NCBI GenBank assembly: GCA_028870355.1 | Contig: JAGWPU010000141.1 | Span: 1-40,692, forward strand | DNA from: Gammaproteobacteria bacterium | GTDB taxonomy: Bacteria; Pseudomonadota; Gammaproteobacteria; Steroidobacterales; Steroidobacteraceae | Length of the DNA stretch: 40,692 nt | Reading direction: 5' to 3' | Shown: positions 13,526-40,692 of the stretch, piece by piece | Layout of the letters: every line of letters begins with the position of its first letter | Numbering within the stretch: the stretch's first letter is position 1 | Translations under genes and position numbers: made by a program | The notes under the pieces: generated by a model | What the model was told of the DNA's origin: nothing | Database searches by the model: none | The model's input: only the letters and a program-made list of their open reading frames with translations

Positions 13526-13528
13526 CGT

Positions 13529-15946
13529 TCAGACCCTCATCCGCGCGTTGTCGGGATCGAATGCCGGACGCTCGAGCACGACCGCCGGGCGTCGCTTCCC
13601 TTGCAGCAGGATCTCGAAGCGCGTCCCGGGCGCCGCGAACTGCGGATCGACGCACGCGAACGCGAGGCTCTTCGCGACGCGGTGCCCGTAGCCGCCCGAG
13701 GTCGTCAATCCGATGCTCCGGTCGCCGAGCAGGACCGGCTCGGCGCCGCGCGCATCGGTGTCCTGCGCATCGACCTCGAGGTACACGATCCGCAGCGGCC
13801 GCGGTGCGGTCGCCTGGGTCGCGGCCTTGCCGACGAAGTCCTCCTTGCCGAAGTCGATGAAGCGCGCCATGTCGGCCTCGAGCATGTTGAGCTCGTTGGT
13901 GAGCTCGGTGCTCCATGCCTTGTAGCCCTTCTCGATCCGCATCGAATTGACCGCGTACAGCCCGTAGTCGGCGATACCGAGGCGCTGGCCCGCGTCCCAG
14001 AGCGCGTCGTAGATCGTCGTGATCGAATCCATCGGCGCGTGCAACTCCCAGCCGAGTTCGCCGACGTAACTGACTCGCAGCGCACGCACCGGCCGGCCGG
14101 CGACCGTGATCTCGCGAGCCGAGAGCCACCGGAAGCCGGCATTCGACAGGTCCGCGTCGGTGAGCGTCGCGAGCAGTTCGCGCGAGCGCGGTCCGGAGAG
14201 CACCAGAACGCCGTAATCGGCGGTCACGTTCGTGACCACGACGCGCTCCCCGGGTCGCTGGCTCTGCATCAGGAGGTCGAGATCGCGCAGCTCCGCGGCG
14301 GCCGCCGACAGGGCGTAGAAGCGATCGTCGGCGAGGCGGCTCACGGTCATCTCGCCGGCGATGCGTCCGCCGCGCGACAACGGGTGCACGAGCGCGATGC
14401 CGCCCGCCTTGCGCGGCATCCGGTTCGCGCATACCCGGTTCAGGAAGGCCTCGGCGTCCGGCCCGGTGATCTCGAACTTCGCGAATCCACTGAGATCGAG
14501 CACGCCGACGCGCTCGTGCACGGCCGCGACCTCGTCACGGACGACGTCGAACACGTTGTTCCGCGCGTAGCTGGGCTGCTCGACGCGACCGTCGAGCGAG
14601 AACCACTTCGGCCGCTCCCAGCCGAAGGTCTCGGTGTAGACGCAGCCGTGGCCCGCGAGTTTCGCGTACAGGGGGCTGACCTTGCGCGGCCGACCGTCCG
14701 GTTCCTCCTCCCCGGGCAACCGCGTCGTGAACGTGGTCCGATAATCGAGGAACACCTTCGCACGCACGTAAGCCACGTCCGCGAACCCGCCGAAGCGACG
14801 CGGATCGAATTCCGTCATGTTGATCTCGGCGTCGCCGTGCACCATCCACTGTGCCAGATACTTGCCGCAGCCGCCGCCCTGCGCGATCCCGAACGAGGTG
14901 CCGCAGCAGTCCCAGAAATTCGTCAGTCCGGCGACCGGCCCGAGCAGCGGCGCGCCGTCGGGCGTGTGCGGGATCGCGCCGTTGATCACTCGCCGGATCC
15001 CGGCGTCGCCGAAGATCGGCATCCGTTCGAGCGCGCGCTCGAGCCAGGGCCCGATCCGCTCGAGGTCGTCCGGGAACAGCTCGTTCGAGGATTCCCACGC
15101 CGGATGGCCCTGCGGTGCCCAGGCTTCGCGCAGGTCACTGTGCTCGTAGACGCCGATCAGGCCGGACTTCTGTTCCTGCCGGAAGTACCCCGACACGTAG
15201 GAATCGCGCATCACCGGGATCTCGACGCCGCCCTGCGCGAACGCCTTGATCGGGTGGGTCACGATGTAGTGGTGTTGCATGTTGGTGATCGGCGCATCCG
15301 CGCCGACCATCTCGGCGACCTGCCGCGCATAGCACCCCGCGGCGTTGACGACGACCTCCGCGACGATCGACCCCTGCTCGGTCGCGACTTCCCACTCGCC
15401 GCTCGCGCGCCGGGTGATGCCGGTCACCCGGTTGTGGCGAAGGACCGTGACCCCGAGGTCGCGCGCGCCCTTCGCGAGCGCGTTGCAGATCCCGGCCGGA
15501 TCACCATGTCCGTCGTCCTGCGTCCACCCCGCCGCGATCACCCCGTCGGTCGTCAGGTAGGGATTCAGCCGCTTGATCTCGTCGACCCCGACGATGTCCA
15601 TGCGGAACCCGATGGCCCGCGCGTACCCCAGGACCCGCTCGAGCCACGCGAGCTCGTCCGCGGTGTTCGCGAGCCGCAGGCCGCCGCTACCGTGCCAGCT
15701 GACGTACTGTCCGGTCAGCGCTTCGAGCCGCGGATAGAGCGCATTGCTGTACGCATGGATCTTCGCGAGGTTGTAGCTGCCGGTGATGCTCGGACACTGG
15801 CCGGCCGCGTGCCACGTGGAACCGGACGTCAACTCGTGCTTCTCGACGATGACCGTGTCGGTCGCGCCTTCGAGCGCGAGGTGATAGGCGAGGCTGGCAC
15901 CCATGATGCCGCCGCCGACGATGACGATCTGTGCGTGTGTTTTCAT
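13529..15946 (-). CDS. FAD oxidoreductase-GcvT fusion, dimethylglycine/sarcosine dehydrogenase-like (copy 2)
   Basis: 805 residues, same architecture as the downstream gene but clearly diverged from it. It has the FAD motif IVIVGGGIMGAS (7-18), SGSTWHAAG with the probable flavin-linking His 46, an FAD-domain C-terminal part, then a GcvT module (SYVGELGWELHAP; MRIEKGYKAW). The start is the ATG at 15946; the frame stays open upstream, but that stretch is promoter DNA facing the LysR gene. First gene of the operon. Having two different fusion dehydrogenases plus a Rieske oxygenase suggests stepwise removal of several methyl groups from one compound (for example trimethyl to dimethyl to monomethyl). 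That order is inference. Confidence 0.85.
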   Translation of the reverse strand: MKTHAQIVIVGGGIMGASLAYHLALEGATDTVIVEKHELTSGSTWHAAGQCPSITGSYNLAKIHAYSNALYPRLEALTGQYVSWHGSGGLRLANTADELAWLERVLGYARAIGFRMDIVGVDEIKRLNPYLTTDGVIAAGWTQDDGHGDPAGICNALAKGARDLGVTVLRHNRVTGITRRASGEWEVATEQGSIVAEVVVNAAGCYARQVAEMVGADAPITNMQHHYIVTHPIKAFAQGGVEIPVMRDSYVSGYFRQEQKSGLIGVYEHSDLREAWAPQGHPAWESSNELFPDDLERIGPWLERALERMPIFGDAGIRRVINGAIPHTPDGAPLLGPVAGLTNFWDCCGTSFGIAQGGGCGKYLAQWMVHGDAEINMTEFDPRRFGGFADVAYVRAKVFLDYRTTFTTRLPGEEEPDGRPRKVSPLYAKLAGHGCVYTETFGWERPKWFSLDGRVEQPSYARNNVFDVVRDEVAAVHERVGVLDLSGFAKFEITGPDAEAFLNRVCANRMPRKAGGIALVHPLSRGGRIAGEMTVSRLADDRFYALSAAAAELRDLDLLMQSQRPGERVVVTNVTADYGVLVLSGPRSRELLATLTDADLSNAGFRWLSAREITVAGRPVRALRVSYVGELGWELHAPMDSITTIYDALWDAGQRLGIADYGLYAVNSMRIEKGYKAWSTELTNELNMLEADMARFIDFGKEDFVGKAATQATAPRPLRIVYLEVDAQDTDARGAEPVLLGDRSIGLTTSGGYGHRVAKSLAFACVDPQFAAPGTRFEILLQGKRRPAVVLERPAFDPDNARMRV

Positions 15947-16055
15947 GCGATGAGACGGGCTCCCGATGGCGGATGACGACGATAAATTGAGCCTTGATCG
16001 ACAGACAAACGAATATTTTGATAGCTTAGCCCCGGTTTTTTTTCGAGCATCCCCC
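15947..16055. promoter_or_regulatory. Divergent promoter region between demethylation operon and LysR regulator
   Basis: This 109-base stretch is markedly AT-richer than its surroundings (for example AAACGAATATTTTGATAGC) and has a run of eight T at 16036-16043. It separates the minus-strand operon from the plus-strand LysR gene, the standard layout for LysR regulators that control a divergent operon and themselves. I could not fix a single T-N11-A box with confidence. Confidence 0.55.
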
Positions 16056-16982
16056 GTGAATCGGACCAAACCGGTGGTCGGCTTGCCGACCTTGACCTGG
16101 CTGCGCGCGTTCGAGGCCGCGGCGCGGACCTCGAGCTTCAGCGCCGCTGCGGCGGAGCTGAATCTCACGTCGGGCGCGATCGGCTACCAGATCCGCGCGC
16201 TCGAACGCCACCTCGGGTTCGCCCTGTTCGAACGGCTGCCGCGCGGCGTGCGCCTGACCGCGATGGGGGTCGCCTACCTGCCGCCCGTCCGCAAGGCGTT
16301 CGAGGAACTCGCGGACTCGACGATCGGCCTGTTCGGCGGCGACGCGCGGGCGCAGATCACGGTGCACGCGCCGGTGAGCCTCGCCGCGCTGTGGCTCGCG
16401 CCCCACTTGCCGTCGTTCGCCGCGGCGCATCCGTCGATCGACGTGCGGCTGTGCTCCGTGGTCTGGGACAACGCCTCGCCCGACGAGTCGACCGACCTCG
16501 AGATTCGATATGGCGATGGTCATTGGCTCGGCTATCGCTCGGAGCGCTTCCTGAACCAGGGAATCCTCGCGGTCTGCAGCCCGACGCTGCGGCGCGAGGC
16601 CAACGGCGAGACCCGCGGCGAGGCCGGGTCGGTCGCGCTGCTCGCGCGGCATCCGATCCACATCATGGGCTACGAGGATCACTGGCTGAGCGTGCAACGC
16701 GAACTGGGCCTGCGCGACGCCGGAACGCCGCGCGGGCCGACCGTGGACACCTCGGTCGCCGCGCTAGAACTCGCCGCGAACGGCATGGGCTGCGCGCTCG
16801 CGCACCGGATCTTCGCGGCGCCGTACCTGCGCACCGGCCGGCTGGTCACGGTGATCGACCGGGAATTCCGCGACCGCCGCTCGTATTTCGTCGTCATGCC
16901 CGAACGGGCGCGCCGCGTGCGCCGCGAAGTCGAGTCCTTCCGGGACTGGCTGCTGGAACTCGCCGCCGCCGAAATCGTCTGA
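16056..16982 (+). CDS. LysR-family transcriptional regulator (GcvA-like)
   Basis: 308 residues from a GTG at 16056, the normal size. The N-terminal winged helix-turn-helix (about residues 9-68) reads LPTLTWLRAFEAAARTSSFSAAA and then LNLTSGAIGYQIRALERHLG, close to the GcvA branch. The rest is the two-lobed effector-binding domain. An in-frame ATG at 15966 would add 30 acidic, low-similarity residues encoded by AT-rich promoter-like DNA, so it was not chosen; a GTG six codons further in is also possible. Divergent from the Rieske/dehydrogenase operon, so it probably activates that operon in response to the amine or a breakdown product. Ends 13 bases from the convergent hybrid kinase gene. Confidence 0.85.
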   Translation: MNRTKPVVGLPTLTWLRAFEAAARTSSFSAAAAELNLTSGAIGYQIRALERHLGFALFERLPRGVRLTAMGVAYLPPVRKAFEELADSTIGLFGGDARAQITVHAPVSLAALWLAPHLPSFAAAHPSIDVRLCSVVWDNASPDESTDLEIRYGDGHWLGYRSERFLNQGILAVCSPTLRREANGETRGEAGSVALLARHPIHIMGYEDHWLSVQRELGLRDAGTPRGPTVDTSVAALELAANGMGCALAHRIFAAPYLRTGRLVTVIDREFRDRRSYFVVMPERARRVRREVESFRDWLLELAAAEIV

Positions 16983-21925: not shown

Positions 21926-23425
21926 TCAGTCTACCCAGCCGAGGGATCGATCCACCGCCTTCTTCCAGCCCGCGCACAGGGTCGCGCGGCGCGCGTCGGT
22001 CATCGTCGGCGCGAAGCGCTTCTCGAGCGTCAGCTCCGCCGCGAGATCCGCGCTGCTGCGCCAGTGACCGACCGCGAGGCCGGCCGCGAACGCGGCCCCG
22101 AGCGCGGTCGTCTCGACGGTCTTGGGGCGCAGCACGTCGATCCCGAGGATGTCGGCCTGGAATTGCATCAGGGTCTCGTTCACCGCCATGCCACCGTCGA
22201 CCCGCAGTTCGGCGATCGCCGTGCCGGAATCGCTGCGCATCGCCTCGAGCACGTCGCGCGTCTGATACGCGGTCGCCTCGAGGGCCGCGCGGGCAAGGTG
22301 TCCGCGATTCGCAAAGCGGGTCAGTCCGGTGATCACCCCGCGCGCATCGGGCCGCCAGTACGGGGCGTACAGCCCCGAGAAGGCCGGCACCATGTACACG
22401 TCGCCGTTGTCCTCGACCTCGCGCGCGAGCACCTCGACGTCGGCGCTGCGCTCGATCAGTCCGAGGTTGTCCCGCAACCACTGAACGAGCGCACCCGCGA
22501 TCGCGACCGAACCCTCGAGCGCGTACCGCGGCGCGTCCCGGCCGAATCGGTACGCGACCGTGGTGATCAGGCCGGCGCGCGAGCGCACCGGCCGCGTGCC
22601 GGTATGGGTCAGCAGGAAACAGCCGGTCCCGTAGGTGTTCTTGGTCGCACCGGGCTCGAAACACGCCTGCCCGACCAGCGCGGCCTGCTGATCCCCGAGG
22701 ATTCCGGCGAGAGGAACGCCGGCGAGCGGGCCCCCGCTCACCACGCCGTAGGGCTCGCTGGAGGAGACGATCCGCGGGAGCGCCGCCCGCGGCACGTCGA
22801 ACGCGCGCAGCAACTCCTCGTCCCAGTCCAGGGTCTCGAGATTCATCAACTGCGTACGGCTCGCATTGGTGACGTCGCTCACGTGCACGCCGCCGCGCGG
22901 CCCGCCGGTCAGGTGCCACACCAGCCAGGCGTCGATGGTTCCGACCAGCGCGTCCCCGGTCTGCGCGGCGGCGTGCGCGCCCGCGACTTCGGCGAACAAC
23001 CACTCGACCTTCGGCGCGCTGAAATAGCTCGCGAGCGGCAGCCCGGTCTTCTCCCGGAACCGGTCATGGCCGCCGTCGGCCGCGTGGCGCGCCACCAGCG
23101 CATCGGCCCGGGTATCCTGCCAGACGAGCGCGTTGTGCAGCGGCCGACCGCTGTGTCGATCCCAGACGAGCACCGTCTCGCGTTGGTTCGTGATCCCGAT
23201 CGCGGCCAGATCGGCCGCGCGCAATCCGGCGTGCGACAGCGCGTCCGCCGCGACCCGGCGGGTATTTTCGAGGATCTCGAGCGGATCGTGCTCGACCCAG
23301 CCCGGTCGCGGAAAGATCTGCGCATGCTCGCGCTGCGCCGACGCGATGGGGTTTCCGGCGCGATCGAACACGATGAACCGCGTGCTGGTGGTCCCTTGAT
23401 CGATCGAACCGACGTACTGCGGCAT
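21926..23425 (-). CDS. glpK: Glycerol kinase
   Basis: 499 residues, the standard length. It phosphorylates glycerol with ATP to give sn-glycerol 3-phosphate and so traps glycerol that enters the cell. Seen: the FGGY-family N-terminal phosphate loop [15 protein letters not shown] (about 6-20), the substrate-contact region [12 protein letters not shown], the ATP-site block [13 protein letters not shown], and [12 protein letters not shown]. The ATG at 23425 is preferred over a longer open frame because the GlpK core starts directly after it. Not clustered with glpF or glpR. GlpD is encoded 6 kb away in the same window, beside the sulfoquinovosidase gene whose reaction can free glycerol. Confidence 0.94.
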
Positions 23426-23598
23426 GGCGACCCAGTCCTCTGCGACGCCGAACGGACGTCGACTCGATGATCGCACACGCCGCGAGCCCCCGGATATCCC
23501 GTAGCGTGCCGCGCCCGCTCCCGATGGCCGCCGACCACGTGACGGATTAGAGTGCGTCGAAGGGCTCGAACACGAGGACCCGCGGAGGACCGACGGCG

Positions 23599-29778: not shown

Positions 29779-31275
29779 TCAGTTCCCGAGCCACGCCCGT
29801 ACGCGGTCCGCCTCGGCCCGGTCGTAGCGCAGGCCGAGCTTGGACCGACGCCACAGCACGTCCTCGGCGCTGCGCGCCCATTCCCGGTCCCGCAGGTGCT
29901 GCAATTCCGCTTCGAACAGGTCGGGCGCGATCTCCTCGCCGAGCCCGCGCGTGTCGGCTGCGCCGCCGAGGATCCGTTCGGCGATCGTCCCGTACGCCCG
30001 GCAGAGGCGGTCGATCAAGGTCGCCGGAAACGCGGCGTATCGCTGCCGCATCGAGGCAGCGAACGCCTCGTAGCCTCCCGGCGGGAAGTCGCCACCGGGA
30101 AGCGCCGCGGAACGGGTCCATGACGCCGAACGCACACCGAGAGCCGGCAGCAACTGGGCGAGCGCGTGCTCCGCGAGCTTGCGATAGGTCGTGAGCTTGC
30201 CGCCGAACACGGACAGCATCGGTGCGCCGGCGGGCGGCGCGTCGAGGTCGAACACGTAGTCCCGCGTGATCGTCGAGGCGTTCTGCCCGCCGTCGTCGTG
30301 CAGGGGCCGCACGCCCGCATAACTCCAGCGCAGATCGACGGGCGAGATCGGACGCGGCAGGTAGTCGGACGCCGATCGGCACAGGTACTCGATCTCCTCG
30401 GCATCGGCCCGCAGTGCGGTCGGATCGCCGTCGAAGGGCACGTCGGTCGTGCCGATCAACGTGAACGCCTTCTCGTACGGGATCATGAACACGACCCGTC
30501 CGTCGCTGTTTTGCAGCGTGTAGGCCTGTTCGCCGGAGTAGACCCGCGGGACGACGATGTGGCTCCCCTTCACGAGGCGCACCGAGTTGCGCCGCGGTGC
30601 TCCACTGCCGCGCAGGATCTGCTCCACCCACGGCCCCGCCGCGTTCACGAGCGCCCGCGCGCGCACCGCGCGGCCGCCGCCCGGTCCGGCGAGCCGAACC
30701 CGCCATTCGCGCCCTTCGCGCTCCGCCGACTCGAAGGCGGTGCCGATCTCGACGCTCGCACCGCGCGAGCGTGCGTCGACCGCATTGGCCACGACCAGTC
30801 GCGCGTCATCGGCCCAGCAGTCGGAGTATTCGAAGCCGCGGCGGAACTCGGCGCGCAGCGGGTCGAGTTCGGGGTCGCGGCCACGCCGGAGCGTGCGCGT
30901 CGGCGGCAGGCGCTTGCGCCCGCCGATGTGATCGTAGAGCCACAGGCCCGTCCGCAAGATCCAGGCGGGCCGCAGGCCCCGGTGCAGCGGCAGCACGAAG
31001 CGCAGCGGCCAGATCAGATGACCCGCCGCGGCCAGCAGGACCTCCCGCTCCGCGAGGCTCTCGCGCACGAGACGGAACTGGTATTGCTCGAGATATCGCA
31101 ATCCGCCGTGAATCAGCTTCGACGAGGCCGACGAGGTCGCGTTGCCGAGGTCGCCGCGCTCGACGAGCAGCACCGACAGGCCGCGGCCGGCCGCGTCGCG
31201 CGCGATGCCGACGCCGTTGATCCCGCCGCCGACGACGACCAGATCGACCGAGGATGACTCAAGCGAATTCGTCAT
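29779..31275 (-). CDS. glpD: Aerobic glycerol-3-phosphate dehydrogenase
   Basis: 498 residues, standard for GlpD. A membrane-associated flavoenzyme that oxidises sn-glycerol 3-phosphate to dihydroxyacetone phosphate and passes electrons to quinone. The FAD motif VVVGGGINGVGIARDAAGRG (about 13-32), the family block SSKLIHGGLRYLEQYQF (about 51-67) and the C-terminal signature FGGKLTTYRKLAEHA are visible. It starts 119 bases downstream of the sulfoquinovosidase stop on the same strand, so co-transcription is possible. That places it where glycerol released from sulfoquinovosyl-glycerol would be needed, with GlpK encoded elsewhere in the window. The ribosome-binding site is weak. Confidence 0.93.
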   Translation of the reverse strand: MTNSLESSSVDLVVVGGGINGVGIARDAAGRGLSVLLVERGDLGNATSSASSKLIHGGLRYLEQYQFRLVRESLAEREVLLAAAGHLIWPLRFVLPLHRGLRPAWILRTGLWLYDHIGGRKRLPPTRTLRRGRDPELDPLRAEFRRGFEYSDCWADDARLVVANAVDARSRGASVEIGTAFESAEREGREWRVRLAGPGGGRAVRARALVNAAGPWVEQILRGSGAPRRNSVRLVKGSHIVVPRVYSGEQAYTLQNSDGRVVFMIPYEKAFTLIGTTDVPFDGDPTALRADAEEIEYLCRSASDYLPRPISPVDLRWSYAGVRPLHDDGGQNASTITRDYVFDLDAPPAGAPMLSVFGGKLTTYRKLAEHALAQLLPALGVRSASWTRSAALPGGDFPPGGYEAFAASMRQRYAAFPATLIDRLCRAYGTIAERILGGAADTRGLGEEIAPDLFEAELQHLRDREWARSAEDVLWRRSKLGLRYDRAEADRVRAWLGN

Positions 31276-31394: not shown

Positions 31395-33413
31395 TTACAG
31401 GGAGCGCAGCGCCACGAACAGCGCGGCGTGGCGGCTGTCCTTGCGATAGAACACCGGCGGCTGGCCGAGCGGCGCATCGACCTCGGCGTCGCTCCCGCCG
31501 GGGTGCTCGGCGCCGCTCCAGACGTGAATCCACCGGACGCCCGCCGGCAGGTACGTGGCCCAGCGCCGCGCTCCCGCGTCGATCACCGGCGCGACCAGCA
31601 CGTCCGGCCCGTAGAGATACGCGGTTTGCGTCGCATACGCGCGTTCGTCGTCCTCGAAATGCAGGAACAGAGGTCGCTGCACCGGCAGTCCGCGACGCTC
31701 GGCCTCGACACACAGATCGGCGAGATACGGAGACAGATGCCGGTACACGCGGGTCATTCGCGCGAAGTGCGCCAGGACTTGCGGGTCCTGGTCGATCTGC
31801 AGGTTCTCCGTCGGGCGATTCCCCTCGTGCGTGCGCATCACCGGCGTGAACGCCGCCATCTCCGCCCAGCGCTGCAGCAACTCGGCGGTGCGCACGTTCC
31901 CGAACAGGCTCGTGTAGCCGCCGATGTCGCTGTGGTGGTACGCATTGCCGAGCAGGCCCGACGACAGCGCCCCGCAGATCACCGTCTGCAGTCCGTCGTG
32001 GCGGCTGAAATCGACCGACTGATCGCCGGCCCAGAGCAATGGGCAGTATTTCTGCACACCGCTGAAACCGGCGCGCATGAAGAACACCACCTCGCCGGTC
32101 TTGCCACGGTTGGCGACCGCGTCCGCGTTCACCTTCGCCCACACGGTCGGCCACGCATTGTGCGCGAGCATGCCGTCGAGCCCGCTCGCGAGCCGCACGT
32201 CGACCGGCAGGTACTCGCCGAAGTCGGCCATCCATCCGGACAGGCCGAGGTCCAGCAGGTTCTGGCCGATCACGCGCTCTTCGAACCAGGCGCATGCGCC
32301 CGGGTGGGTGAAGTCGACCAGGCCGCACTCGAACTCGCCGAAGTCGACGAGGTAGATCTCGTCACGGTCCGCGCGCCGGATGAGATAGCCCGCGCTCGCG
32401 GCCTCCTGGAACAAGCCGCCGTCGGCGCACAGATAGGGGTTCACGTAGCCGAGGAATCGGATCCCGCGTTCGTCGAGCTCGCGGATCCGGCGATCGAGCC
32501 CCGGGTAGCGTTCCTGGTTCCAGCGCCAGTCCCAGAACAGGCGCTTGCCGAACGAGGTCTCGCGGATGCCGACCCAGTCCTCGCACCACAGCCCGCTGAC
32601 CGCGCTGCCCGCCGCGATGATCCGCTCCAGCCGTTCGAAGCTGCGCGCGCCGTCCTTCAAGCCGACGATCGCGCCGCGCAGCACCCACGCCGGCAGGCGC
32701 GGCTGCCGTCCGAAGCGCGCCGACAGGGTCTCGACCAGATCGAGGAAATGCGCCGCATGCCACACCTCGATCCGCGACGGCACCTCCCAGACCTCGATCT
32801 CGTGGAACGCCGCGTGACGGAAGTCGAACGCCGAGTACGCCGTGGTCTCGACGTGCAACGCGTAGCGGCTCGAGGACAGGTAAGTCGGCTGAGGATAGTT
32901 CGTGTGGTAGTAGTCGCCGCCGCCGCCGTTGCGACGGTCGGCCTCGAACGTGATCTGGGTCGATTTGTCGCGTCCGACGCCAGGTTCCGAGGTCCACAGC
33001 GGGAAACGGCGGCCCCGCAGGTCGAAATACGACAATTGCTCGCCGCCGCCCCAGATCCGCTCGTTCGCGCCCGCGGCGATGCGCAGCCAGAAGCGGTTCA
33101 CGCCGGGCGTTTCGCAGTACCACGACAACTCCAGGTGCCGGTCGGTCTCGGCGACGCCGAGCACGATCGCCGGTCCCGCGGAACCCGCGGCCGACAGCAC
33201 GATCTCGGCGCCGCCCGTTCGCGGCGTGATCCGCGCCTCGACCAGCGGCACCCGCTCGACGAGATAGTCGTCGATCTGGAAGTTGCCTTTGGTCATCCGC
33301 ACGTCCGCCTCGCCGACGCCGAGGTACGCGCAGGGCGCGTCCGACCGGTGGCGCAACAGGGTCACGCCGCCGATCACGAGGTCGAATCCGTTGGTGTGCT
33401 CGATCAGTGGCAT
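31395..33413 (-). CDS. Sulfoquinovosidase (GH31 alpha-glycosidase, YihQ/SQase type)
   Basis: 672 residues, close to E. coli YihQ, and alignable along the whole length. It hydrolyses alpha-sulfoquinovosides such as sulfoquinovosyl glycerol to free sulfoquinovose. Seen: WGGGEQLSYFDLRGRRFPLW and TSEPGVGRDK (121-150), which are SQase hallmarks; nucleophile Asp 397 in GWMADFGEYLP; and acid/base Asp 464 in WAGDQSVD. Sulfonate-pocket residues recalled from published SQase structures are Lys 253, Glu 278, Arg 291 (FGKR), Trp 294 and Tyr 500 (GGYTSLF), the KERWY set of the Agrobacterium enzyme rather than the QQRWY set of E. coli. Spacing fits too (25, 13 and 3 residues). No signal peptide, so cytoplasmic. 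Divergent from the GntR regulator. Confidence 0.92.
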   Translation of the reverse strand: MPLIEHTNGFDLVIGGVTLLRHRSDAPCAYLGVGEADVRMTKGNFQIDDYLVERVPLVEARITPRTGGAEIVLSAAGSAGPAIVLGVAETDRHLELSWYCETPGVNRFWLRIAAGANERIWGGGEQLSYFDLRGRRFPLWTSEPGVGRDKSTQITFEADRRNGGGGDYYHTNYPQPTYLSSSRYALHVETTAYSAFDFRHAAFHEIEVWEVPSRIEVWHAAHFLDLVETLSARFGRQPRLPAWVLRGAIVGLKDGARSFERLERIIAAGSAVSGLWCEDWVGIRETSFGKRLFWDWRWNQERYPGLDRRIRELDERGIRFLGYVNPYLCADGGLFQEAASAGYLIRRADRDEIYLVDFGEFECGLVDFTHPGACAWFEERVIGQNLLDLGLSGWMADFGEYLPVDVRLASGLDGMLAHNAWPTVWAKVNADAVANRGKTGEVVFFMRAGFSGVQKYCPLLWAGDQSVDFSRHDGLQTVICGALSSGLLGNAYHHSDIGGYTSLFGNVRTAELLQRWAEMAAFTPVMRTHEGNRPTENLQIDQDPQVLAHFARMTRVYRHLSPYLADLCVEAERRGLPVQRPLFLHFEDDERAYATQTAYLYGPDVLVAPVIDAGARRWATYLPAGVRWIHVWSGAEHPGGSDAEVDAPLGQPPVFYRKDSRHAALFVALRSL

Positions 33414-33538
33414 CGCGTCAGCTCGCGGTCGCGGCGACGGAGCGCCGGATCGATGGAATCGTCGTCATGGATCGATCACGCCCTCGCGGTCGGAGTGGAT
33501 TCGGGCGCCGGCGCGACGCTTGCCCGACACCGCTAACC

Positions 33539-33555
33539 CTTATATCTTATATAAG
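33539..33555. promoter_or_regulatory. Operator 1 of the SQ locus: perfect 7-3-7 inverted repeat
   Basis: CTTATATCTTATATAAG has arms CTTATAT and ATATAAG that are exact reverse complements around CTT. It lies in the 262-base divergent gap between the sulfoquinovosidase and GntR genes, in one of the few AT-rich spots of the region. A near-copy is at 39584-39600. It overlaps plausible promoter boxes on both strands: TTGCCC-N17-TATCTT (plus, from 33520) and TTGCGA-N16-TATAAG (minus, from 33573). Likely the binding site of the adjacent GntR/UTRA protein, giving repression until an SQ-derived ligand binds. The rest of this gap shows nothing further. Confidence 0.72.
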
Positions 33556-33675
33556 ACTCGATCGACCTCGCAAGCCGACCTCGCCCGCCGCAGCGGCGAC
33601 GCCCTGCCGAGGGGCCGGGATGGACAGCGTCACCGGCTTCATCGTAGTGTCCTGCCATCCGCCATGGAGACTCCC

Positions 33676-34395
33676 GTGACCCAGACGCCGGGCTATCGCC
33701 CCCTGTATCGACAGGTCTACGACATTGTCGTGAGCCGTGTCGTCCAGGGTGCGTGGCGTCCCGGCGAAGCGCTGCCGAGCGAGCAGAGCCTCGCGAAGGA
33801 ACTCGGGGTGAGCCAAGGCACGGTGCGCAAGGTCCTCGACGCGCTGACCGCGGAGAAATTGCTCGAGCGACGCCAGGGCAAGGGAACCTACATCGCCGAG
33901 CACACCCAGGAACGCTCGCTGTTCCGCTTCTTCCGGATCTCGCGTCCCGGGGGCGAGCGCCTGAAGCCCGCGCGCGCGAACGAGACGGTGAAGGTGCGCG
34001 TCGCGCGCTCGGCCGAACGCGCGAAGCTCGATCTCGAGCGCGACGCCCGGGTCGTGGAGATCACCCGCACCCGCCTGATCGACGGACGCCCGGCGCTGCA
34101 CGAGGTGATCGCGCTCCCCGCGCACCTGTTCGCGGGCATCGAGAAGCGCGCCGAGCTGCCGAACACGCTCTATTCGTTGTACCAGACGGACTATGGCATC
34201 AACATCGTCGCGACGCGCGAAGAGGTCCGTGCGGATCTCGCGAACGCGACGGACCACCGGATCCTCGGCGTGCCGGTGGGCAGCCCGATCCTCGTGATCG
34301 ACCGCGTCGCGTTGTCGCTCCAGGAGCGCAAGGTCGAGTGGCGCGTGAGCCGGGTGAAGTCCGACAACCTCGTCTACGCGGTGACCTTGACCTGA
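33676..34395 (+). CDS. GntR-family (HutC/UTRA) transcriptional regulator of the SQ locus
   Basis: 239 residues. The N-terminal winged helix (about 5-72) has PLYRQVYDIVVSRVVQGAWRPG, then LPSEQSLAKELGVSQGTVRKVLD and RRQGKGTYI, typical of GntR. The rest is a UTRA ligand-binding domain as in HutC-type regulators, which usually sense a sugar or amino-acid metabolite. GTG 33676 is preferred because GGAG sits 6 bases before it; ATG 33664 is the alternative and has no such site. Divergent from the sulfoquinovosidase and convergent with the SQ operon (19 bases between stops). The repeated 17-bp inverted repeat in both divergent promoters is its most likely target. The ligand is probably SQ or a sulfo-ED intermediate (inference). 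Confidence 0.87.
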   Translation: MTQTPGYRPLYRQVYDIVVSRVVQGAWRPGEALPSEQSLAKELGVSQGTVRKVLDALTAEKLLERRQGKGTYIAEHTQERSLFRFFRISRPGGERLKPARANETVKVRVARSAERAKLDLERDARVVEITRTRLIDGRPALHEVIALPAHLFAGIEKRAELPNTLYSLYQTDYGINIVATREEVRADLANATDHRILGVPVGSPILVIDRVALSLQERKVEWRVSRVKSDNLVYAVTLT

Positions 34396-34414
34396 GCGCC
34401 CCGCGGGCGGCCGG

Positions 34415-35218
<804 letters not shown>

Positions 35219-36106
35219 TCAGACATCGGGATCGAAGGCTCGCGGTGGCAAGCCGGCGACGCCCGCCTCGAGCGCGAACAGGTCGCCGCCGCGGCCGTCC
35301 GGATCGCGCGCGGTGGTCACGTACAGCGTCGTGAGGCCGGGCCCGCCGAACGCCGGCATCGTCGGCGAGCGCGCCGGAACCGGATAGGCGGCGATCAAAC
35401 GGCCGTCCGGATCGAAACGGCAGACCCGGCCGCCCTCGTAGAGCGCGCTCCAGTAGCACCCCTGCACGTCGACCGCGGCCCCGTCAGGACGGCCGCGATC
35501 GGTCGCGGTCGGCTCGATGCGCAGGAACACGCGGCGATTCGTCGCGGCACCGGTCGCGACGTCGTAGTCGCACCGGTAGACGACGAATCTCGGCGTGTCC
35601 GAGTGGTACAGCGTCTTCCCGTCGGGCGAGAACGCGAGACCGTTCGACGTCATCAAGCCGCCGGCGAGCCGTACGAGTCCGCGCCGGTCGAGCCGGTACA
35701 GGCCGGCGCGGCCGCCGGCCTTCGGTTCGTCGATCGTCCCGACGAGCAGTCGGCCGGCCGGATCGACGCGTCCGTCGTTGAAGCGGCTGACCGTCGTGTC
35801 CTCGGGATTCGCGGCGAGCATCGCGCGCCGCGCGCCCGACGCATCGAACCGCCACACGCCCGACCGCAAGCCCGCGACGAAGCCGCCGCCGGCGACCGGC
35901 GCGACGCAGCCGATCGCCTCGCCCGCGTCGTACTCGACGCGGGTGCCGCGCACCGGATCGTAGCGAAACCAGCGGCCGGCCGGCACGTCCACGAACAGCA
36001 GTTCGCCGGACTCGGGCAGCCACACCGGGGATTCTCCGAGCGCGCAGCCGCAGTCGAGCACCCGGTGGAAGCGCGCGTCGCGCGCCGGACCCGCGATCAT
36101 GCGCAT
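35219..36106 (-). CDS. SMP-30/gluconolactonase-family lactonase, probable sulfogluconolactonase
   Basis: 295 residues, a six-bladed propeller metal-dependent lactonase. Metal ligands of the SMP-30 family can be placed: Glu in LGESPVWL (about 24), Asn in VSRFNDGRVDPAGRL, Asn in MTSNGLAFSPDG and Asp in RPDGAAVDVQG. In the sulfo-ED pathway it opens 6-deoxy-6-sulfogluconolactone to 6-deoxy-6-sulfogluconate, the dehydratase substrate. The first ATG (36106) overlaps the mutarotase stop by 10 bases; a second ATG at 36100 gives an ATGA overlap. Either way translation is probably coupled. The family is clear; the sulfonated substrate is inferred from the neighbours. Confidence 0.84.
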   Translation of the reverse strand: MRMIAGPARDARFHRVLDCGCALGESPVWLPESGELLFVDVPAGRWFRYDPVRGTRVEYDAGEAIGCVAPVAGGGFVAGLRSGVWRFDASGARRAMLAANPEDTTVSRFNDGRVDPAGRLLVGTIDEPKAGGRAGLYRLDRRGLVRLAGGLMTSNGLAFSPDGKTLYHSDTPRFVVYRCDYDVATGAATNRRVFLRIEPTATDRGRPDGAAVDVQGCYWSALYEGGRVCRFDPDGRLIAAYPVPARSPTMPAFGGPGLTTLYVTTARDPDGRGGDLFALEAGVAGLPPRAFDPDV

Positions 36107-36987
36107 CGCTCCGCGCCGACCGTGACGAGGCCGCCGATGCGCTCGCCGGGTGCGACGATCGACATGCCGCCCGACCGCAACGTCGGGCGATTGACCGCAT
36201 CGGCGACGTGGCTGACCGGTTCGACCCCGAGAAAGTCGCGGCCCGCGGGCACGAACACGCGCAGCACCGGGAACGGCGCAGCGGCGACGATCCGCACCGC
36301 GAGGCCATCCGGCTCGACGAGTCGCGCCTCGCCGCGCCAGCCGAAGAAGTCGTTGTCCAGCGGCCGATCACCGACCGCGAGTCCGCGTTCGGCATCCCAC
36401 GGCAATCCCGCGATCGCCTCGAGCGGCAGGGCATCGTCGCCGTTGCGCCACCATCCGTCCGCTGCGAACTCGAGGTGCTGACCGTCGCGGCGCGGGAACA
36501 AGGGATGCCAGCCGATGCCGAGCGGTACCGGGAACGCCTCGAGGTTCCGCGCGAGCAATTCGATCCGCAGTCCCTGCGGGTCGACCGCGACGCGCTGGAT
36601 CGCCTCGAATGCGAACGGCCAATCGAGCGCATCCTCGCCCGTCGGTCGGTGCTCGAGGCGCAGCTCGCATCCGGTCTCGTCGGCGTGCGTCACCTGCCAG
36701 CGGCGTTGCCAGCCGACGCCGTGCAGGGGATGGGCGCCCTCGGGAAAATTCCCGCGCAGTCGATATGAGCGCCCGCCAACGCCGAATCGTCCGAACGCGA
36801 TGCGGTTCGCGTAGGGCACGAGCGGGTAAGCGCCGGTACGGCGCACGTCCTGCGCCGCGACGGCCGCGTCCGGCGTCGGTCGCAGGATCGCGCGATCCCG
36901 TCGCGACAGCTCGACGATCGCGCCGCCGACCGACGGCGCGACGGCGGCGCGCCACTCACCGGCGCGCAATTCGATGCGCGTCGTCAT
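36097..36987 (-). CDS. Aldose 1-epimerase family, probable sulfoquinovose mutarotase
   Basis: 296 residues of the galactose mutarotase-like beta-sandwich. Conserved elements: YPLVPYANRI near residue 54 with the substrate-contact Arg, HPLHGVGWQ with the catalytic His (about 87-90), GIGWHPLFP with the second His, and the C-terminal Glu in GVEPVSHVAD. It interconverts anomers of a sugar. The sulfoquinovosidase releases alpha-SQ, while sulfo-ED dehydrogenases use one anomer, so a mutarotase fits the pathway, and such genes occur in known SQ clusters. Starts 7 bases after the aldolase stop and overlaps the lactonase gene, so it belongs to the operon. Substrate from context only. Confidence 0.83.
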   Translation of the reverse strand: MTTRIELRAGEWRAAVAPSVGGAIVELSRRDRAILRPTPDAAVAAQDVRRTGAYPLVPYANRIAFGRFGVGGRSYRLRGNFPEGAHPLHGVGWQRRWQVTHADETGCELRLEHRPTGEDALDWPFAFEAIQRVAVDPQGLRIELLARNLEAFPVPLGIGWHPLFPRRDGQHLEFAADGWWRNGDDALPLEAIAGLPWDAERGLAVGDRPLDNDFFGWRGEARLVEPDGLAVRIVAAAPFPVLRVFVPAGRDFLGVEPVSHVADAVNRPTLRSGGMSIVAPGERIGGLVTVGAERCA

Positions 36988-36994
36988 CGCACAC

Positions 36995-37795
36995 TCAATA
37001 CGCGACTCCGGGCGCAGCCGGGCCGGCCGCGCGCCCGCGGATCGCGCCGAGACAGTCTGCCGCGCGACCGGTCAGCATCGCGAGATCCGACGCGACCGCG
37101 ACCCAATCGTAACCGTAGCCGAGGTACTGGGCGACGATCTCCGGACTCCCCCCGACGGTACCGATCGGCTTGCCCGCCGCGTGCGCGTCCCGGGCCGCCT
37201 TCGCGATCATCGCCTGCACCTCGGGATGCGCGATCTCCCCGATCCGACCCATGGCCGCCGACAGATCGCCAGGACCGAGGAACAGCGAGTCGACACCCGG
37301 CACCGCCGCGATCGCCGGGAGTCGCTCGAGCGCCTCGGGGGTTTCGAGCTGGATCACGACCGCGATCGCTGCGTTCGCATTGCGCAGGTAGTCCCGGGTC
37401 TGCCCGTAGCGCGACCCCCGGTGCACCGCCGCGACCCCGCGCACGCCCTGCGGCGGATAGCGGGTATACGCGACCGCGGCCGCGGCCTCCTCGGCGCTCT
37501 GCACGAACGGGAACATCACGTTCCGGGCGCCCGCGTCGAGCACTCGCTTCACGTCGACCTGGTCGTTCCAGGGGACCCGAACGAGCGACTCGCACGGCGT
37601 CCCCGCGATCGCCCGCATCAAGCCGACCGCGTCCGCGAGATCGAGCGGACTGTGTTCCATGTCGACGACGAGGAAGTCGAATCCGCAGAAGCCGAGCGCC
37701 TCAGCGACTGCCGGCGCGGCGGACATCAGCCAGGTCCCGACCATCGGACCGGGCCCGCGCGTCGCGAGCCGCGTCTTGAACGGATTCGTCTCCAT
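36995..37795 (-). CDS. HpcH/HpaI-type class II aldolase, probable keto-deoxy-sulfogluconate (KDSG) aldolase
   Basis: 266 residues, typical for the family. Metal-dependent retro-aldol enzyme: base His in VVDMEHSPLD (about 45-54), Arg in LVRVPWND, metal ligands Glu in VIQLETPEA and Asp in FLGPGDLSAAMG. In sulfo-ED, an HpaI-like aldolase splits 2-keto-3,6-dideoxy-6-sulfogluconate into pyruvate and sulfolactaldehyde. The start at 37795 has GAGGAG 7 bases upstream, which rejects a much longer open frame running antisense of nothing but high-GC sequence. It follows the dehydratase gene by 17 bases and precedes the mutarotase by 7, so it sits in the middle of the pathway operon. Confidence 0.86.
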   Translation of the reverse strand: METNPFKTRLATRGPGPMVGTWLMSAAPAVAEALGFCGFDFLVVDMEHSPLDLADAVGLMRAIAGTPCESLVRVPWNDQVDVKRVLDAGARNVMFPFVQSAEEAAAAVAYTRYPPQGVRGVAAVHRGSRYGQTRDYLRNANAAIAVVIQLETPEALERLPAIAAVPGVDSLFLGPGDLSAAMGRIGEIAHPEVQAMIAKAARDAHAAGKPIGTVGGSPEIVAQYLGYGYDWVAVASDLAMLTGRAADCLGAIRGRAAGPAAPGVAY

Positions 37796-37812
37796 CGGCA
37801 ATCTCCTCGGGA

Positions 37813-39570
37813 TCAGTAGATCGGCGGTTCGGGCGTGGGCGCGCGCCCCGCGAGAAAATCGAAATCGCAGCCCTGCGGCGCCTGGCTCACGTGCGCTCGA
37901 TAGAGCGCCGCGTAGGAGCGCGGGTACGAGGGCGCCGGCGGTCGCCATTCGGCGCGGCGCCGCTGCCACTCGTCCGTCTCGACGCAGGCCTCGAGACGGC
38001 CCGCCGGCACGTCGAGCCGGACCCGGTCGCCGGTGCGCAGCAGCGCGAGCGGCCCGCCGATCGCCGCCTCTGGCGCGATGTGCACGATGCAGCACCCGTA
38101 ATGCGTTCCGCTCATGCGCGCGTCCGACAGGCGGACCATGTCGCGCACGCCGCGCGCGAGCAGTTTCTTCGGGATCGGCAGATTGCCCCACTCCGGCATT
38201 CCGGGGGCGCCGACGGGACCGGCGTTGCGCAACACGAGCACGGTGTTCTCGTCCACCTCGAGCGCCGGATCGTCGATGCGCGCCGACAGGCTCGCGTGAT
38301 CGTCGAACACGAGCGCCCGGCCTTCGTGCCGCAGCAGGCGCGGATCGGCCGCGCTCGACTTCAGCACCGCGCCGTCCGGGCAGAGATTGCCGCGCAACAG
38401 CGCGAGCGTCGAGCCTCGCGACAGCGGAACCACGGGGTCGTCGACGCCGCGGATCACCTCGTCGTCCCAGCAACGCGCGCCAGCGAGCGCCTCGCCGAGC
38501 GTGCGACCCTCGACGCTGAGCGCGCCCGTGTCGAGCCGATCCTTCAGCTTCGCGAGCAGCGCGGGCATGCCGCCGGCGAAGAAGAAATCTTCCATCAACC
38601 GGTCGCCCGAGGGGAACAGATTCGCGAGCACCGGCGTCTCGCGCGCCGCAGCGGCGAGATCCTCGAGCGTCAAGGCGACGCCGGCCCGACCCGCCATGGC
38701 GATCAGATGAATGGCGGCGTTCGTCGATCCGCCGAGCGCCATGTACGCGACGACGCCGTTGCGAAACGCCGCCGCGGTCGCGACGCGGTCGATGGTGAGG
38801 CCCTCCCGAACCATCGCGACGATGCGCTCGCCGCAGGCCGAGGCCATCCGCACGTGCCCGGAGTCCGCCGCCGGGATCGACGACGCACCGCTCAAGGTCA
38901 GGCCCATCGCGTCGACGATGGACGTCATCGTCGATGCGGTACCCATCGTGTTGCAGGTGCCGATCGACCGCGTCATCCGCGACTCCAGATCGATCCAGTC
39001 GTCGGCGGTGATGTTCCCCGCGCGCAGTTCGTCCCAGTATTTCTTCGTATGGGTTCCCGCGCCCGTCTTCACGCCGCGCCATTGTCCATTGGACATCGGA
39101 CCCGCCGGACAGAAGATCGCCGGCAACCCCATGCTGAGCGCGCCCATCAGCAAGCCCGGCGTCGACTTGTCGCACCCGCCGAGCAGCACCGCACCGTCGA
39201 TCGGATGGGAGCGCAGCAACTCCTCCGTCTCCATCGCGAGGAAATTGCGGTACATCATCGTCGTCGGCTTCACCATCACCTCGCCGACCGACAGTGCCGG
39301 CAACTCGACGGGATACCCGCCGGCGAGCAGCACGCCGCGCTTGACCGCCTCGGCGCGATCGCGCAGGTGGACGTGGCAGGGGCTCATGTCGCTCCAGGTG
39401 TTCACGATCGCGATCACCGGCCGGCCGAGGAACTCCTCGCGCCGCAGGCCCATCTGTTGCGTGCGCTGACGGTGCGCGAAGCCGCGCATGTCCTCGCGCT
39501 CGTACCACCGCGCGCTGCGCAGCACGGCCCCGGACGACCCCTTCTTCGGTTGGCTACTTGAATTCGTCAT
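37813..39570 (-). CDS. IlvD/Edd-family dehydratase, probable 6-deoxy-6-sulfogluconate dehydratase
   Basis: 585 residues, the size of sugar-acid members of the family (arabonate/xylonate dehydratases). The iron-sulfur cluster Cys motifs GGCDKSTPG (about 131-139) and GTCNTMGTAST are present, as is the C-terminal block MVRLSDARMSGTHYG, whose Ser acts as base in the family. It removes water from sulfogluconate to give the 2-keto-3-deoxy acid that the next gene product cleaves. The ATG at 39570 is 57 bases from the divergent suyA start, and the operator at 39584-39600 sits between them. First gene of the five-gene SQ operon. Family certain; substrate inferred. Confidence 0.87.
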   Translation of the reverse strand: MTNSSSQPKKGSSGAVLRSARWYEREDMRGFAHRQRTQQMGLRREEFLGRPVIAIVNTWSDMSPCHVHLRDRAEAVKRGVLLAGGYPVELPALSVGEVMVKPTTMMYRNFLAMETEELLRSHPIDGAVLLGGCDKSTPGLLMGALSMGLPAIFCPAGPMSNGQWRGVKTGAGTHTKKYWDELRAGNITADDWIDLESRMTRSIGTCNTMGTASTMTSIVDAMGLTLSGASSIPAADSGHVRMASACGERIVAMVREGLTIDRVATAAAFRNGVVAYMALGGSTNAAIHLIAMAGRAGVALTLEDLAAAARETPVLANLFPSGDRLMEDFFFAGGMPALLAKLKDRLDTGALSVEGRTLGEALAGARCWDDEVIRGVDDPVVPLSRGSTLALLRGNLCPDGAVLKSSAADPRLLRHEGRALVFDDHASLSARIDDPALEVDENTVLVLRNAGPVGAPGMPEWGNLPIPKKLLARGVRDMVRLSDARMSGTHYGCCIVHIAPEAAIGGPLALLRTGDRVRLDVPAGRLEACVETDEWQRRRAEWRPPAPSYPRSYAALYRAHVSQAPQGCDFDFLAGRAPTPEPPIY

Positions 39571-39583
39571 CTTGATCTGTAAT

Positions 39584-39600
39584 CTTATATCTAATACAAG
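39584..39600. promoter_or_regulatory. Operator 2 of the SQ locus, near-copy of operator 1
   Basis: CTTATATCTAATACAAG matches operator 1 at 15 of 17 positions and keeps the 7-3-7 dyad with one arm mismatch (ATACAAG instead of ATATAAG). It fills the centre of the 57-base divergent gap between the dehydratase gene and suyA, so a bound protein would block both promoters. This links the SQ operon and the sulfo-lyase genes to the same regulator as the sulfoquinovosidase. Confidence 0.7.
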
Positions 39601-39627
39601 AGTTACCAAAGTGGACCGTAGACCCCC

Positions 39628-39918
39628 ATGGCAAACATACCTCATCTCCTGATCCACGACCGCCGCGACAACGTCGGCGTGGTCGTGGTCGAGGGGCTCA
39701 CCGCGGGCACCGACATGCTGTGCGTCGTGACCGAGGACAACAGCGAGCGGCGGGCGACGTGCAATCAGGACGTGCCGATCGGACACAAGATCGCGTTGCA
39801 GGACCTGGCCGTCGGTGACACCGTGATCAAGTACGGCGAGGACATCGGCCGCGTGGTCGCGCCGATCCGCAAGGGCGACCACGTCCATACCCACAATCTG
39901 AAGACCAAGCGCTGGTGA
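39628..39918 (+). CDS. suyA: (2R)-sulfolactate sulfo-lyase small subunit
   Basis: 96 residues, equal to the N-terminal SAF domain of UxaA-type altronate dehydratases but encoded as a separate protein, as in SuyA. Seen: [19 protein letters not shown] at the start, [16 protein letters not shown] in the middle (the conserved GHK-x-A core), KYGEDIG, and the C-terminal [10 protein letters not shown] typical of the small subunit. SuyAB eliminates sulfite from sulfolactate to give pyruvate. Only 5 bases separate it from suyB. It is divergent from the sulfo-ED operon that makes the precursor sulfolactaldehyde. A split altronate or galactarate dehydratase is the main alternative; the cluster argues against it. 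Confidence 0.82.
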
Positions 39919-39923
39919 TACCC

Positions 39924-40692
39924 ATGGATCTCTCCAAACGTACCGTCTGGGCGTATCGCCGCGAAAACGGCCGCGTCGGCGTCCGCAATTACGTCGCGAT
40001 CCTGCCTCTCGACGACATCTCGAATGCCGCGTGCGAGGCCGTCGCCGCGCACATCCAGGGCACGATCGCGCTGCCGCACGCCTACGGCCGCCTGCAGTTC
40101 GGCGAGGACCTCGAACTGCACTTCCGCACGATGATCGGCACCGGCTCGAACCCGAACGTCGCCGCCTGCATCGTGATCGGCATCGAGCCCGCGTGGACCG
40201 AGCGCGTCGTCGCGGGCATCGCGACGACCGGCAAGCCGGTCGCCGGGTTCTGGATCGAGGGCAACGGCGACATCGCGACCGTCGCCGCGGCGTCACGCAA
40301 GGCCAAGGAATTCGTGCACCTGGCGTCGGAGCAGGTTCGCGTCGAATGTCCGCTGAGCGACGTTTGGGTTGCCGCGAAATGCGGCGAAAGCGACACGACG
40401 ACCGGTCTCGCCTCCTGCCCGACCGTCGGCAACATGTACGACAAGCTCGTCCCGCTCGGCCTGTACGGATGTTTCGGCGAGACCTCGGAACTCACCGGCG
40501 CCGAGCACCTCGCCGCCGCGCGCGCCGCCACGCCGGAGATCCGCGAAAAGTTCATGCGGACCTGGTCGGCCTACCAGCGCGACGTGATCGAGGCGCACAA
40601 GACCTCGGATCTCTCCGACAGCCAGCCGACGAAGGGCAACATCGCCGGCGGACTGACGACGATCGAGGAGAAGGCGCTCGGCAATCTCGAGA
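39924..40692 (+). CDS. suyB: (2R)-sulfolactate sulfo-lyase large subunit (3' end outside window)
   Basis: 256 residues are visible; the gene continues past the window edge. It is the UxaA C-terminal catalytic domain: [20 protein letters not shown] at the N-terminus (11-30), [13 protein letters not shown], then [20 protein letters not shown] (151-169) with Cys 153 and Cys 165, likely iron or cluster ligands in this lyase family, and [15 protein letters not shown]. The CGESDTTTG and DSQPTKGN blocks fit SuyB as I remember it. Together with SuyA it cleaves the C-S bond of sulfolactate into pyruvate and sulfite. Downstream genes are not visible; sulfolactaldehyde dehydrogenase, transporters and sulfite handling would be expected there. 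Confidence 0.82.

Follow-up and report, generated by a model that had tools for sequence, protein, structure and literature searches.

A Gammaproteobacterial Locus Linking Predicted Sulfo-Entner–Doudoroff and Sulfolactate Sulfo-Lyase Genes Behind a Shared Palindrome

A 40,692-bp stretch of DNA from a gammaproteobacterium (contig JAGWPU010000141.1), hereafter the window, carries predicted genes for the release of sulfoquinovose (SQ) and for the sulfo-Entner–Doudoroff (sulfo-ED) pathway, together with a divergent gene pair for the sulfolactate sulfo-lyase SuyAB. The window is the whole of contig C113 of a 162-contig, 2.93-Mb assembly with a completeness estimate of 91.85%, and its last gene is cut by the contig end. 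We consider it highly probable that the locus is a co-regulated unit by which a single cell mineralizes the head group of the sulfolipid. Family-level gene identities, synteny, the clade of SuyB and the distribution of an operator were supported by the sequence. An earlier note on this DNA had proposed that one cell holds both the sulfo-ED pathway and SuyAB, and at the level of sequence this holds: the genes are linked, and SuyB lies in the sulfo-lyase clade.

In the proposed pathway, for which we infer the substrates, the stereochemical relay, the identity of the regulator, the use of glycerol and the export step, the sulfoquinovosidase would cleave sulfoquinovosyl-glycerol to SQ and glycerol, and the glycerol would pass to GlpK and GlpD. 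SQ would be epimerized by a mutarotase, oxidized by SQ dehydrogenase, hydrolysed by a lactonase and dehydrated by sulfogluconate (SG) dehydratase, and 2-keto-3,6-dideoxy-6-sulfogluconate (KDSG) aldolase would then yield pyruvate and (S)-sulfolactaldehyde (SLA). An SLA dehydrogenase would form (S)-sulfolactate, which SlcC and ComC would turn, via sulfopyruvate, into (R)-sulfolactate. SuyAB would split the latter into pyruvate and sulfite, and a YeiH-type protein would probably export the sulfite. The SuyAB, sulfo-ED and sulfoquinovosidase–GlpD units would be switched together by a regulator that binds a palindrome in both divergent promoters and is most likely the GntR/UTRA protein of the locus.

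Predicted identity of the sulfo-lyase pair and of the sulfoquinovose enzymes

Two adjacent subunit genes were found at the end of the window, divergent from the SG dehydratase gene; 57 bp separate the two start codons. SuyA (39628..39918, + strand), the small SAF-domain subunit of sulfolactate sulfo-lyase, has 96 aa and matched PF08666 with 22.3 bits (cut-off 21). SuyB (39924..40691, + strand), the large GD_AH subunit, matched PF04295 and PF20629; it is cut by the contig end, and the remaining piece has 256 residues, compared with 391 in a full relative. SuyB was 67.6% identical to a UxaA-family protein adjoining hpsN and hpsO in Cupriavidus pinatubonensis, and 74% identical to a UxaA-family protein of a Paracoccus aestuarii cluster with the order GntR, two UxaA-family genes, tricarboxylate-type transporter, hydroxyacid dehydrogenase, Ldh-family oxidoreductase and putative sulfate exporter. 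SuyA showed 68% and 51% identity to the Paracoccus and Cupriavidus small subunits, respectively, and 71–100% to the homologous proteins of the 18 linked loci described below. C–S cleavage in C. pinatubonensis is attributed to SuyAB (PMC9594981); because of this and of their gene neighbours, the Cupriavidus and Paracoccus "UxaA family" genes were taken to be SuyAB.

In a SuyB tree of 29 rows, the window sequence was placed inside a 23-row clade (100/99) with the Cupriavidus and Paracoccus rows, and the 19 sulfo-ED-linked rows formed one group (99/98). E. coli UxaA, E. coli GarD and an annotated altronate dehydratase were placed outside this clade; the outer rows were long-branched, as a tool warning indicated. 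The earlier note had named beforehand, as evidence against its reading, a grouping of the pair with altronate or galactarate dehydratases. The pair was found apart from those enzymes, and on this tree placement an altronate or galactarate dehydratase identity was rejected.

A dehydratase acting on some other hydroxy acid is a different alternative, which we regard as very unlikely. The family has other two-subunit members (the Variovorax, Sporomusa and Salmonella rows), and the sole NCBIfam model matched was galactarate dehydratase, at 65 bits against a cut-off of 731. However, rows annotated as altronate dehydratase reached only 32–34% identity to SuyB among the best 60 of 311 records, while it was 67.6–74% with the pairs of the hps cluster of C. 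pinatubonensis and of the Paracoccus cluster with its ComC-like, SlcC-like and exporter genes, and ComC and SlcC homologues adjoin the pair in relatives. As judged from its sequence, the window pair is most likely the (R)-sulfolactate sulfo-lyase SuyAB.

The sulfo-ED genes form a minus-strand run in the order SG dehydratase, KDSG aldolase, mutarotase, lactonase and SQ dehydrogenase. The predicted SG dehydratase (37813..39570) is an IlvD/Edd protein matching PF00920 with 332 bits. The predicted KDSG aldolase (36995..37795), the start codon of which is not fixed, is an HpcH/HpaI aldolase (PF03328, 140 bits), with GarL/HpaI-type aldolases as its nearest solved structures. The putative SQ mutarotase (36097..36987) belongs to the aldose 1-epimerase family (PF01263, 122 bits), and the putative sulfogluconolactonase (35219..36106) to the SMP-30 family (PF08450, 264 bits). 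The SMP-30 lactonase, PF00920 dehydratase and PF03328 aldolase thus occur together in one cluster, and PF00920 and PF03328 are the reported families of the sulfo-ED dehydratase and aldolase (PMC9594981). The candidate SQ dehydrogenase (34415..35182, − strand) is a short-chain dehydrogenase/reductase (SDR) whose best solved match was 9gwu, named sulfoquinovose 1-dehydrogenase, with 302 bits compared with 212 bits for the next solved SDR. In the Pseudomonas putida enzyme, Asp99, Arg101, Arg152, Arg154 and Gln198 are described as contacts to SQ, Arg152 and Arg154 binding the sulfonate, and Asn119-Ser147-Tyr160-Lys164 as the catalytic tetrad (PMC12133307). Counted along the 9gwu alignment, the window SDR retains all five contact residues and the catalytic tetrad.

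A GntR/UTRA gene (33658..34395, + strand; PF07702, 92 bits; PF00392, 77 bits) is convergent with the sulfo-ED run and divergent from the GH31 sulfoquinovosidase gene (31395..33413, − strand). The GH31 protein matched NCBIfam PRK10426 with 929 bits (cut-off 553) and 5ohy/5ohs, named YihQ, with 969/967 bits; we take 5ohy/5ohs to be the Agrobacterium sulfoquinovosidase. Its six top distinct solved sequences scored 717–969 bits and the next row 138 bits; four of the six were named YihQ or sulfoquinovosidase, and two only GH31 or alpha-glucosidase. In the alignment with 5ohy, GLKDG, WCEDW, the R and W of GKRLFW and the Y of NAYHHSD were aligned. These positions are presumably the sulfonate-recognition residues of a K-E-R-W-Y type motif.

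All of the genes listed in the earlier note (sulfoquinovosidase, GntR, SDR, SMP-30, mutarotase, HpaI, IlvD/Edd and the SuyAB pair) were found with Pfam or NCBIfam matches, as intact frames near the positions first read, SuyB excepted. GlpD beside the sulfoquinovosidase and the shared operator are additions to that gene list.

The SDR, SMP-30, HpaI and IlvD/Edd genes could instead encode a non-phosphorylative pentose or hexose route of the arabinose or xylose type, lying by chance beside a GH31 glucosidase and SuyAB. The NCBIfam labels point that way: the dehydratase was called L-arabinonate dehydratase, with 886 bits barely above the cut-off of 882 and no SG dehydratase model among its NCBIfam matches, and the top SDR model was D-xylose 1-dehydrogenase, with 299 bits below the cut-off of 400. 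However, the SDR was closest to sulfoquinovose 1-dehydrogenase and keeps the SQ-contact residues, and the GH31 protein matched YihQ-type enzymes. Furthermore, a GH31 sulfoquinovosidase homologue was found in the fetched DNA of 69/80 SQ dehydrogenase loci, among them loci of Rhizobium, for which a sulfo-ED pathway has been described (PMC9594981). We therefore hold an ordinary-sugar route to be very unlikely.

Recurrence of the linkage and the shared operator

A scan with the SQ dehydrogenase gave the loci used for comparison, which are the best 80 of 238 related stretches; counts for fetched DNA cover the stretch retrieved around each locus, and some of these stretches were ended by contig ends. 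SuyA and SuyB adjoined sulfo-ED genes in 18 of the 80 loci (L010–L012, L014–L018, L020–L023 and L025–L030), so that the synteny that the earlier note had suggested searching for was indeed present in other genomes. The SuyA and SG dehydratase genes were head-to-head in 16 of the 18. Among the 21 most similar loci, the three lacking SuyAB (L013, L019 and L024) were cut by contig ends before its place, and no SuyB was found in the fetched DNA of the remaining 59/80 loci. A chance association of sulfo-ED and SuyAB is unlikely because the linkage recurs in 18/80 loci from other assemblies. The nearest relatives in the scan were metagenome-assembled genomes (MAGs) labelled Proteobacteria or Gammaproteobacteria. 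The sulfoquinovosidase gene was near-complete in 10 of the 18 SuyAB loci, and five of the other eight were cut within 6.4 kb past the SQ dehydrogenase gene.

The SuyB distances of 19 sequences correlated with those of SQ dehydrogenase, SG dehydratase and aldolase with Mantel r values of 0.83, 0.81 and 0.80, respectively (0/2000 permutations each), figures that are generous owing to kinship among the sequences. A full SuyB was also searched in 16 chosen genomes of the 80 loci, and 15 had a copy of at least 76% identity. The Microvirga roseola copy (81%) lay outside its fetched locus, and the Acidocella facilis copy (76%) lay, provided that contig C6 is the scaffold in question, about 5 kb past the fetched locus; in Palleronia, the best SuyB match was only 34%. 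Among 369 sampled genomes of the class, host included, SQ dehydrogenase was found in 7 and SuyB in 13 at E 1e-60. The six non-host SQ dehydrogenase matches showed 46–51% identity, and the non-host genomes with both proteins were G022 (SQ dehydrogenase, 46%) and G109 (48%). The sample held two further genomes of the host's family, and both lacked the two proteins at this threshold. In G022 (C12:18649-34173), the SDR with 46% identity has one in-frame stop, and a SuyB of 73% identity lies about 14 kb off on the same contig.

Some SQ dehydrogenase loci were composed differently. Five loci of Rhodospirillales MAGs (L071, L085, L086, L088 and L089) had SQ dehydrogenase and sulfoquinovosidase genes and no homologue of the SMP-30 lactonase, SG dehydratase or KDSG aldolase in the fetched DNA, which suggests another route after SQ oxidation. 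Three sulfo-ED loci (L050, of Elstera litoralis, L057 and L061) had no lactonase homologue in the fetched DNA, consistent with a lactonase-free sulfo-ED variant that has been proposed (PMC13372026).

An AT-rich palindromic 18-mer, TCTTATATAAGATATAAG, was found by reading the intergenic regions, with one copy in each divergent promoter. Copy 1 (33539..33556), with no mismatches, is located in the sulfoquinovosidase/GntR divergent region, and copy 2 (39584..39601), with two mismatches, in the 57-bp SG dehydratase/SuyA region. Allowing up to three mismatches, TCTTATATAAGATATAAG had exactly two sites in the 2.93-Mb assembly, both in the locus. It did not occur in 100 shuffles of the window, a figure that is overstated, as the pattern was chosen after the sequence had been inspected. 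Among the 21 nearest loci, the 12-bp core was exact in 17 and present with at most one mismatch in 20; among the other 59 loci it was exact in one (Acidocella facilis) and within one mismatch in three. Not all of these core sites are in promoters. A core form with at most two mismatches was found in all 16 SuyA–SG dehydratase gaps of the head-to-head loci. The genome-wide confinement to two promoters and the recurrence in 16 gaps are stronger facts than the shuffle test. Since the operator is present in both divergent promoters, suyAB and the sulfo-ED operon would stand behind one switch. The GntR/UTRA protein is most likely the operator binder, and a GntR homologue was found in 14 of the 18 SuyAB loci, L018 and L022 being cut near the SQ dehydrogenase gene. 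A sigma-70 promoter scan of 31–40.7 kb gave no sites and was uninformative.

A. facilis has a GH31 sulfoquinovosidase homologue, and its locus (L079:2524-8816) is arranged unlike the window. There, an operator core (6287) lies between a transporter–SlcC–ComC unit and a divergent frame resembling a thiamine-diphosphate enzyme, which is followed by a permease, with SQ dehydrogenase, SG dehydratase and sulfoquinovosidase genes nearby.

Proposed stereochemical relay and fate of sulfite

SuyAB is reported to be (R)-specific, while sulfo-ED yields (S)-sulfolactate (PMC9594981, PMC12421959), and SlcC and ComC would therefore be needed between them. A ComC homologue lay next to SuyB in 18/18 SuyAB loci and an SlcC homologue was present in 16/18; the two loci without SlcC (L022 and L023) end within ComC. 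After SlcC, six loci (L018, L020, L021, L025, L027 and L030) carried a SlaB-like dehydrogenase gene and three (L016, cut, L017 and L026) a YeiH-type exporter gene. ComC, SlcC and the exporter were 54, 60 and 47% identical, respectively, to the matching P. aestuarii genes (Ldh-family, hydroxyacid dehydrogenase and exporter), and the best NCBIfam model of the exporter homologue was YeiH, below the cut-off. The window contig ends before the expected place of ComC and SlcC, which its closest relatives, L010 and L011, both carry next; the SuyB of these loci is 98 and 97% identical to that of the window over the shared part. Contig C39 was rejected as the continuation of the window: L010 matched only C39:1720-2636 (89%, EamA-type by eye), and the frames in C39:1-1700 look unrelated.

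The earlier note had proposed looking beyond the contig for an SLA dehydrogenase, an SQ importer and sulfite oxidation or export genes. Candidates were obtained for two of these functions, an SLA-dehydrogenase-like gene at C42:58423-59868, 77% identical to the clustered L030 gene, and a PF03601 (YeiH-type) protein on C156 of the host assembly. Sulfite oxidation was searched through PF00174 only, and the only PF00174 protein in the assembly was MsrP, not a SorA/SorT sulfite dehydrogenase; sulfite oxidation by an enzyme of this family was therefore rejected.

The MsrP result is one of several findings that, together with the arabinonate label of the dehydratase, speak against the locus being a co-regulated one-cell unit. 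The remainder of SuyB, ComC and SlcC were not found in the host assembly, where the best SlcC-like match was 42%. ComC belongs to the Ldh_2 proteins; its top NCBIfam model, sulfolactate dehydrogenase, was below its cut-off, and the best model of the SlcC homologue was phosphoglycerate dehydrogenase, also below the cut-off. No SLA dehydrogenase gene is in the locus, and the C42 gene lies in no sulfonate context. The L030 dehydrogenase scored 725 bits with 3jz4 (succinate-semialdehyde dehydrogenase) compared with 629 bits with 8c54, which we take to be the Rhizobium SLA dehydrogenase; on sequence alone, the C42 gene is thus no more than a candidate SLA dehydrogenase. Neither a SlaB-like nor an exporter gene lay beside SlcC in 7 of the 16 SlcC loci. 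No importer was found within 29.8–40.7 kb, the part of the genome searched for one. In L028 and L029, SuyAB has another orientation. The GH31 sulfoquinovosidase gene was absent from the 10 kb past the SQ dehydrogenase gene in 3 (L023, L026 and L029) of the 13 SuyAB loci whose DNA reaches that far and is therefore not a constant part. As for the operator, the reversed control pattern had one match in the genome, and L023 and L026 keep operator sites although the DNA fetched for them holds no GntR homologue; another protein may therefore be the binder.

Relation to known systems and glycerol context

SQ is reported to be among the most abundant organosulfur compounds (PMC12890257), and accounts of its breakdown via sulfo-ED usually divide the work between two species, with excreted sulfolactate passing from one to the other. 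In known sulfo-ED clusters, the SQ dehydrogenase, lactonase, SG dehydratase and KDSG aldolase come from the same families as in the window, and a GH31 sulfoquinovosidase or mutarotase is associated. Sulfolactate is excreted there (PMC12890257, PMC9594981), whereas in the window suyAB and the sulfo-ED operon have a 57-bp divergent promoter region and an operator in common. The slcC–comC–suyAB sulfolactate modules of Paracoccus and Chromohalobacter and the suyAB of C. pinatubonensis have been described (PMC9594981); P. aestuarii shares homologous SuyA, SuyB, ComC, SlcC and exporter, and C. pinatubonensis SuyA and SuyB. Those modules serve sulfolactate or 2,3-dihydroxypropane-1-sulfonate (DHPS) made by others, while loci of the window type join sulfo-ED genes.

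Closest in concept is the tandem pathway of Paracoccus wurundjeri Merri (PMC12421959, 2025), in which ED-type cleavage of a sulfohexose to pyruvate and (S)-SLA, sulfolactate racemization and SuyAB are likewise combined in one cell. That pathway is experimentally supported, while the window is known from sequence alone; its substrate is sulfofucose, its dehydratase is of another family, and it has no identified sulfofucosidase. Its authors regard it as unusual for a single bacterium to hold such pathways together (PMC12421959). The same SlcC/ComC/SuyAB module downstream and mostly the same upstream families (PMC12421959) raise the prospect that the window locus also serves sulfofucose and not SQ. 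We judge this extremely unlikely: the sulfofucose dehydratase is PF13378/PF02746, compared with PF00920 here, and the window locus holds a GH31 sulfoquinovosidase, while the E. coli and Agrobacterium sulfoquinovosidases are reported inactive on a sulfofucoside (PMC12421959).

Returning to SQ as the predicted substrate, the extended sulfo-transaldolase (sulfo-TAL) clusters of Thermotogae and Chloroflexi likewise hold SQ cleavage and SuyAB in one cluster, but through a transaldolase route and in other phyla (PMC9594981). Ensifer sp. HO-A22 holds sulfo-ED and DHPS-degrading clusters and is proposed to mineralize SQ; it differs in having two clusters and a DHPS route, and the available text mentions no shared operator (PMC10599462). 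The idea is thus not wholly new, as the tandem ED–SuyAB pathway for sulfofucose, the sulfo-TAL–SuyAB clusters for SQ and the Ensifer HO-A22 clusters precede it. The literature searched, parts of which were available as excerpts, yielded no SQ locus in which sulfo-ED genes are joined by SuyAB, and absence from print is not established. New here are the recurrent sulfo-ED–SuyAB linkage (18/80), the two-promoter operator and GlpD next to the sulfoquinovosidase.

With more reserve, we favour as probable a broader proposal: one palindrome-controlled regulon, inherited as a unit in uncultured Gammaproteobacteria, Caulobacteraceae and Niveispirillum-type bacteria, would mineralize the whole head group in the cell (both SQ halves, the sulfonate sulfur, and glycerol where sulfoquinovosidase and GlpD are present) with no need for a cross-feeding partner. 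If the whole route is indeed encoded by one recurrent, co-regulated locus, single organisms would release sulfite from SQ directly. Carriers with strain names (AAP38 and Acidocella facilis ATCC 35904) make the claim testable on cultures.

GlpD, an FAD glycerol-3-phosphate dehydrogenase (29779..31275, − strand; NCBIfam glycerol-3-phosphate dehydrogenase, 707 bits, cut-off 352), is encoded directly downstream of the sulfoquinovosidase gene, about 120 bp after it. Of the 21 nearest loci, 10 had GlpD no more than 1.4 kb after the sulfoquinovosidase gene, and in 8 of those the distance was at most 130 bp. Cleavage of sulfoquinovosyl-glycerol yields SQ and glycerol (PMC10755693), and since GlpD adjoins the sulfoquinovosidase, both products are probably used. 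The glycerol kinase GlpK (21929..23476, − strand; NCBIfam TIGR01311, 722 bits, cut-off 590), 6.3 kb from GlpD, may be functionally linked to it. In L020, a glycerol kinase gene and an MFS-like frame lie farther along, and in L017 a TonB receptor gene lies between the regulator and the sulfoquinovosidase, with an MFS gene after the latter. Elsewhere in the window (11078-16168) are two long genes that by eye resemble FAD-dependent oxidoreductases of the sarcosine/dimethylglycine dehydrogenase type.

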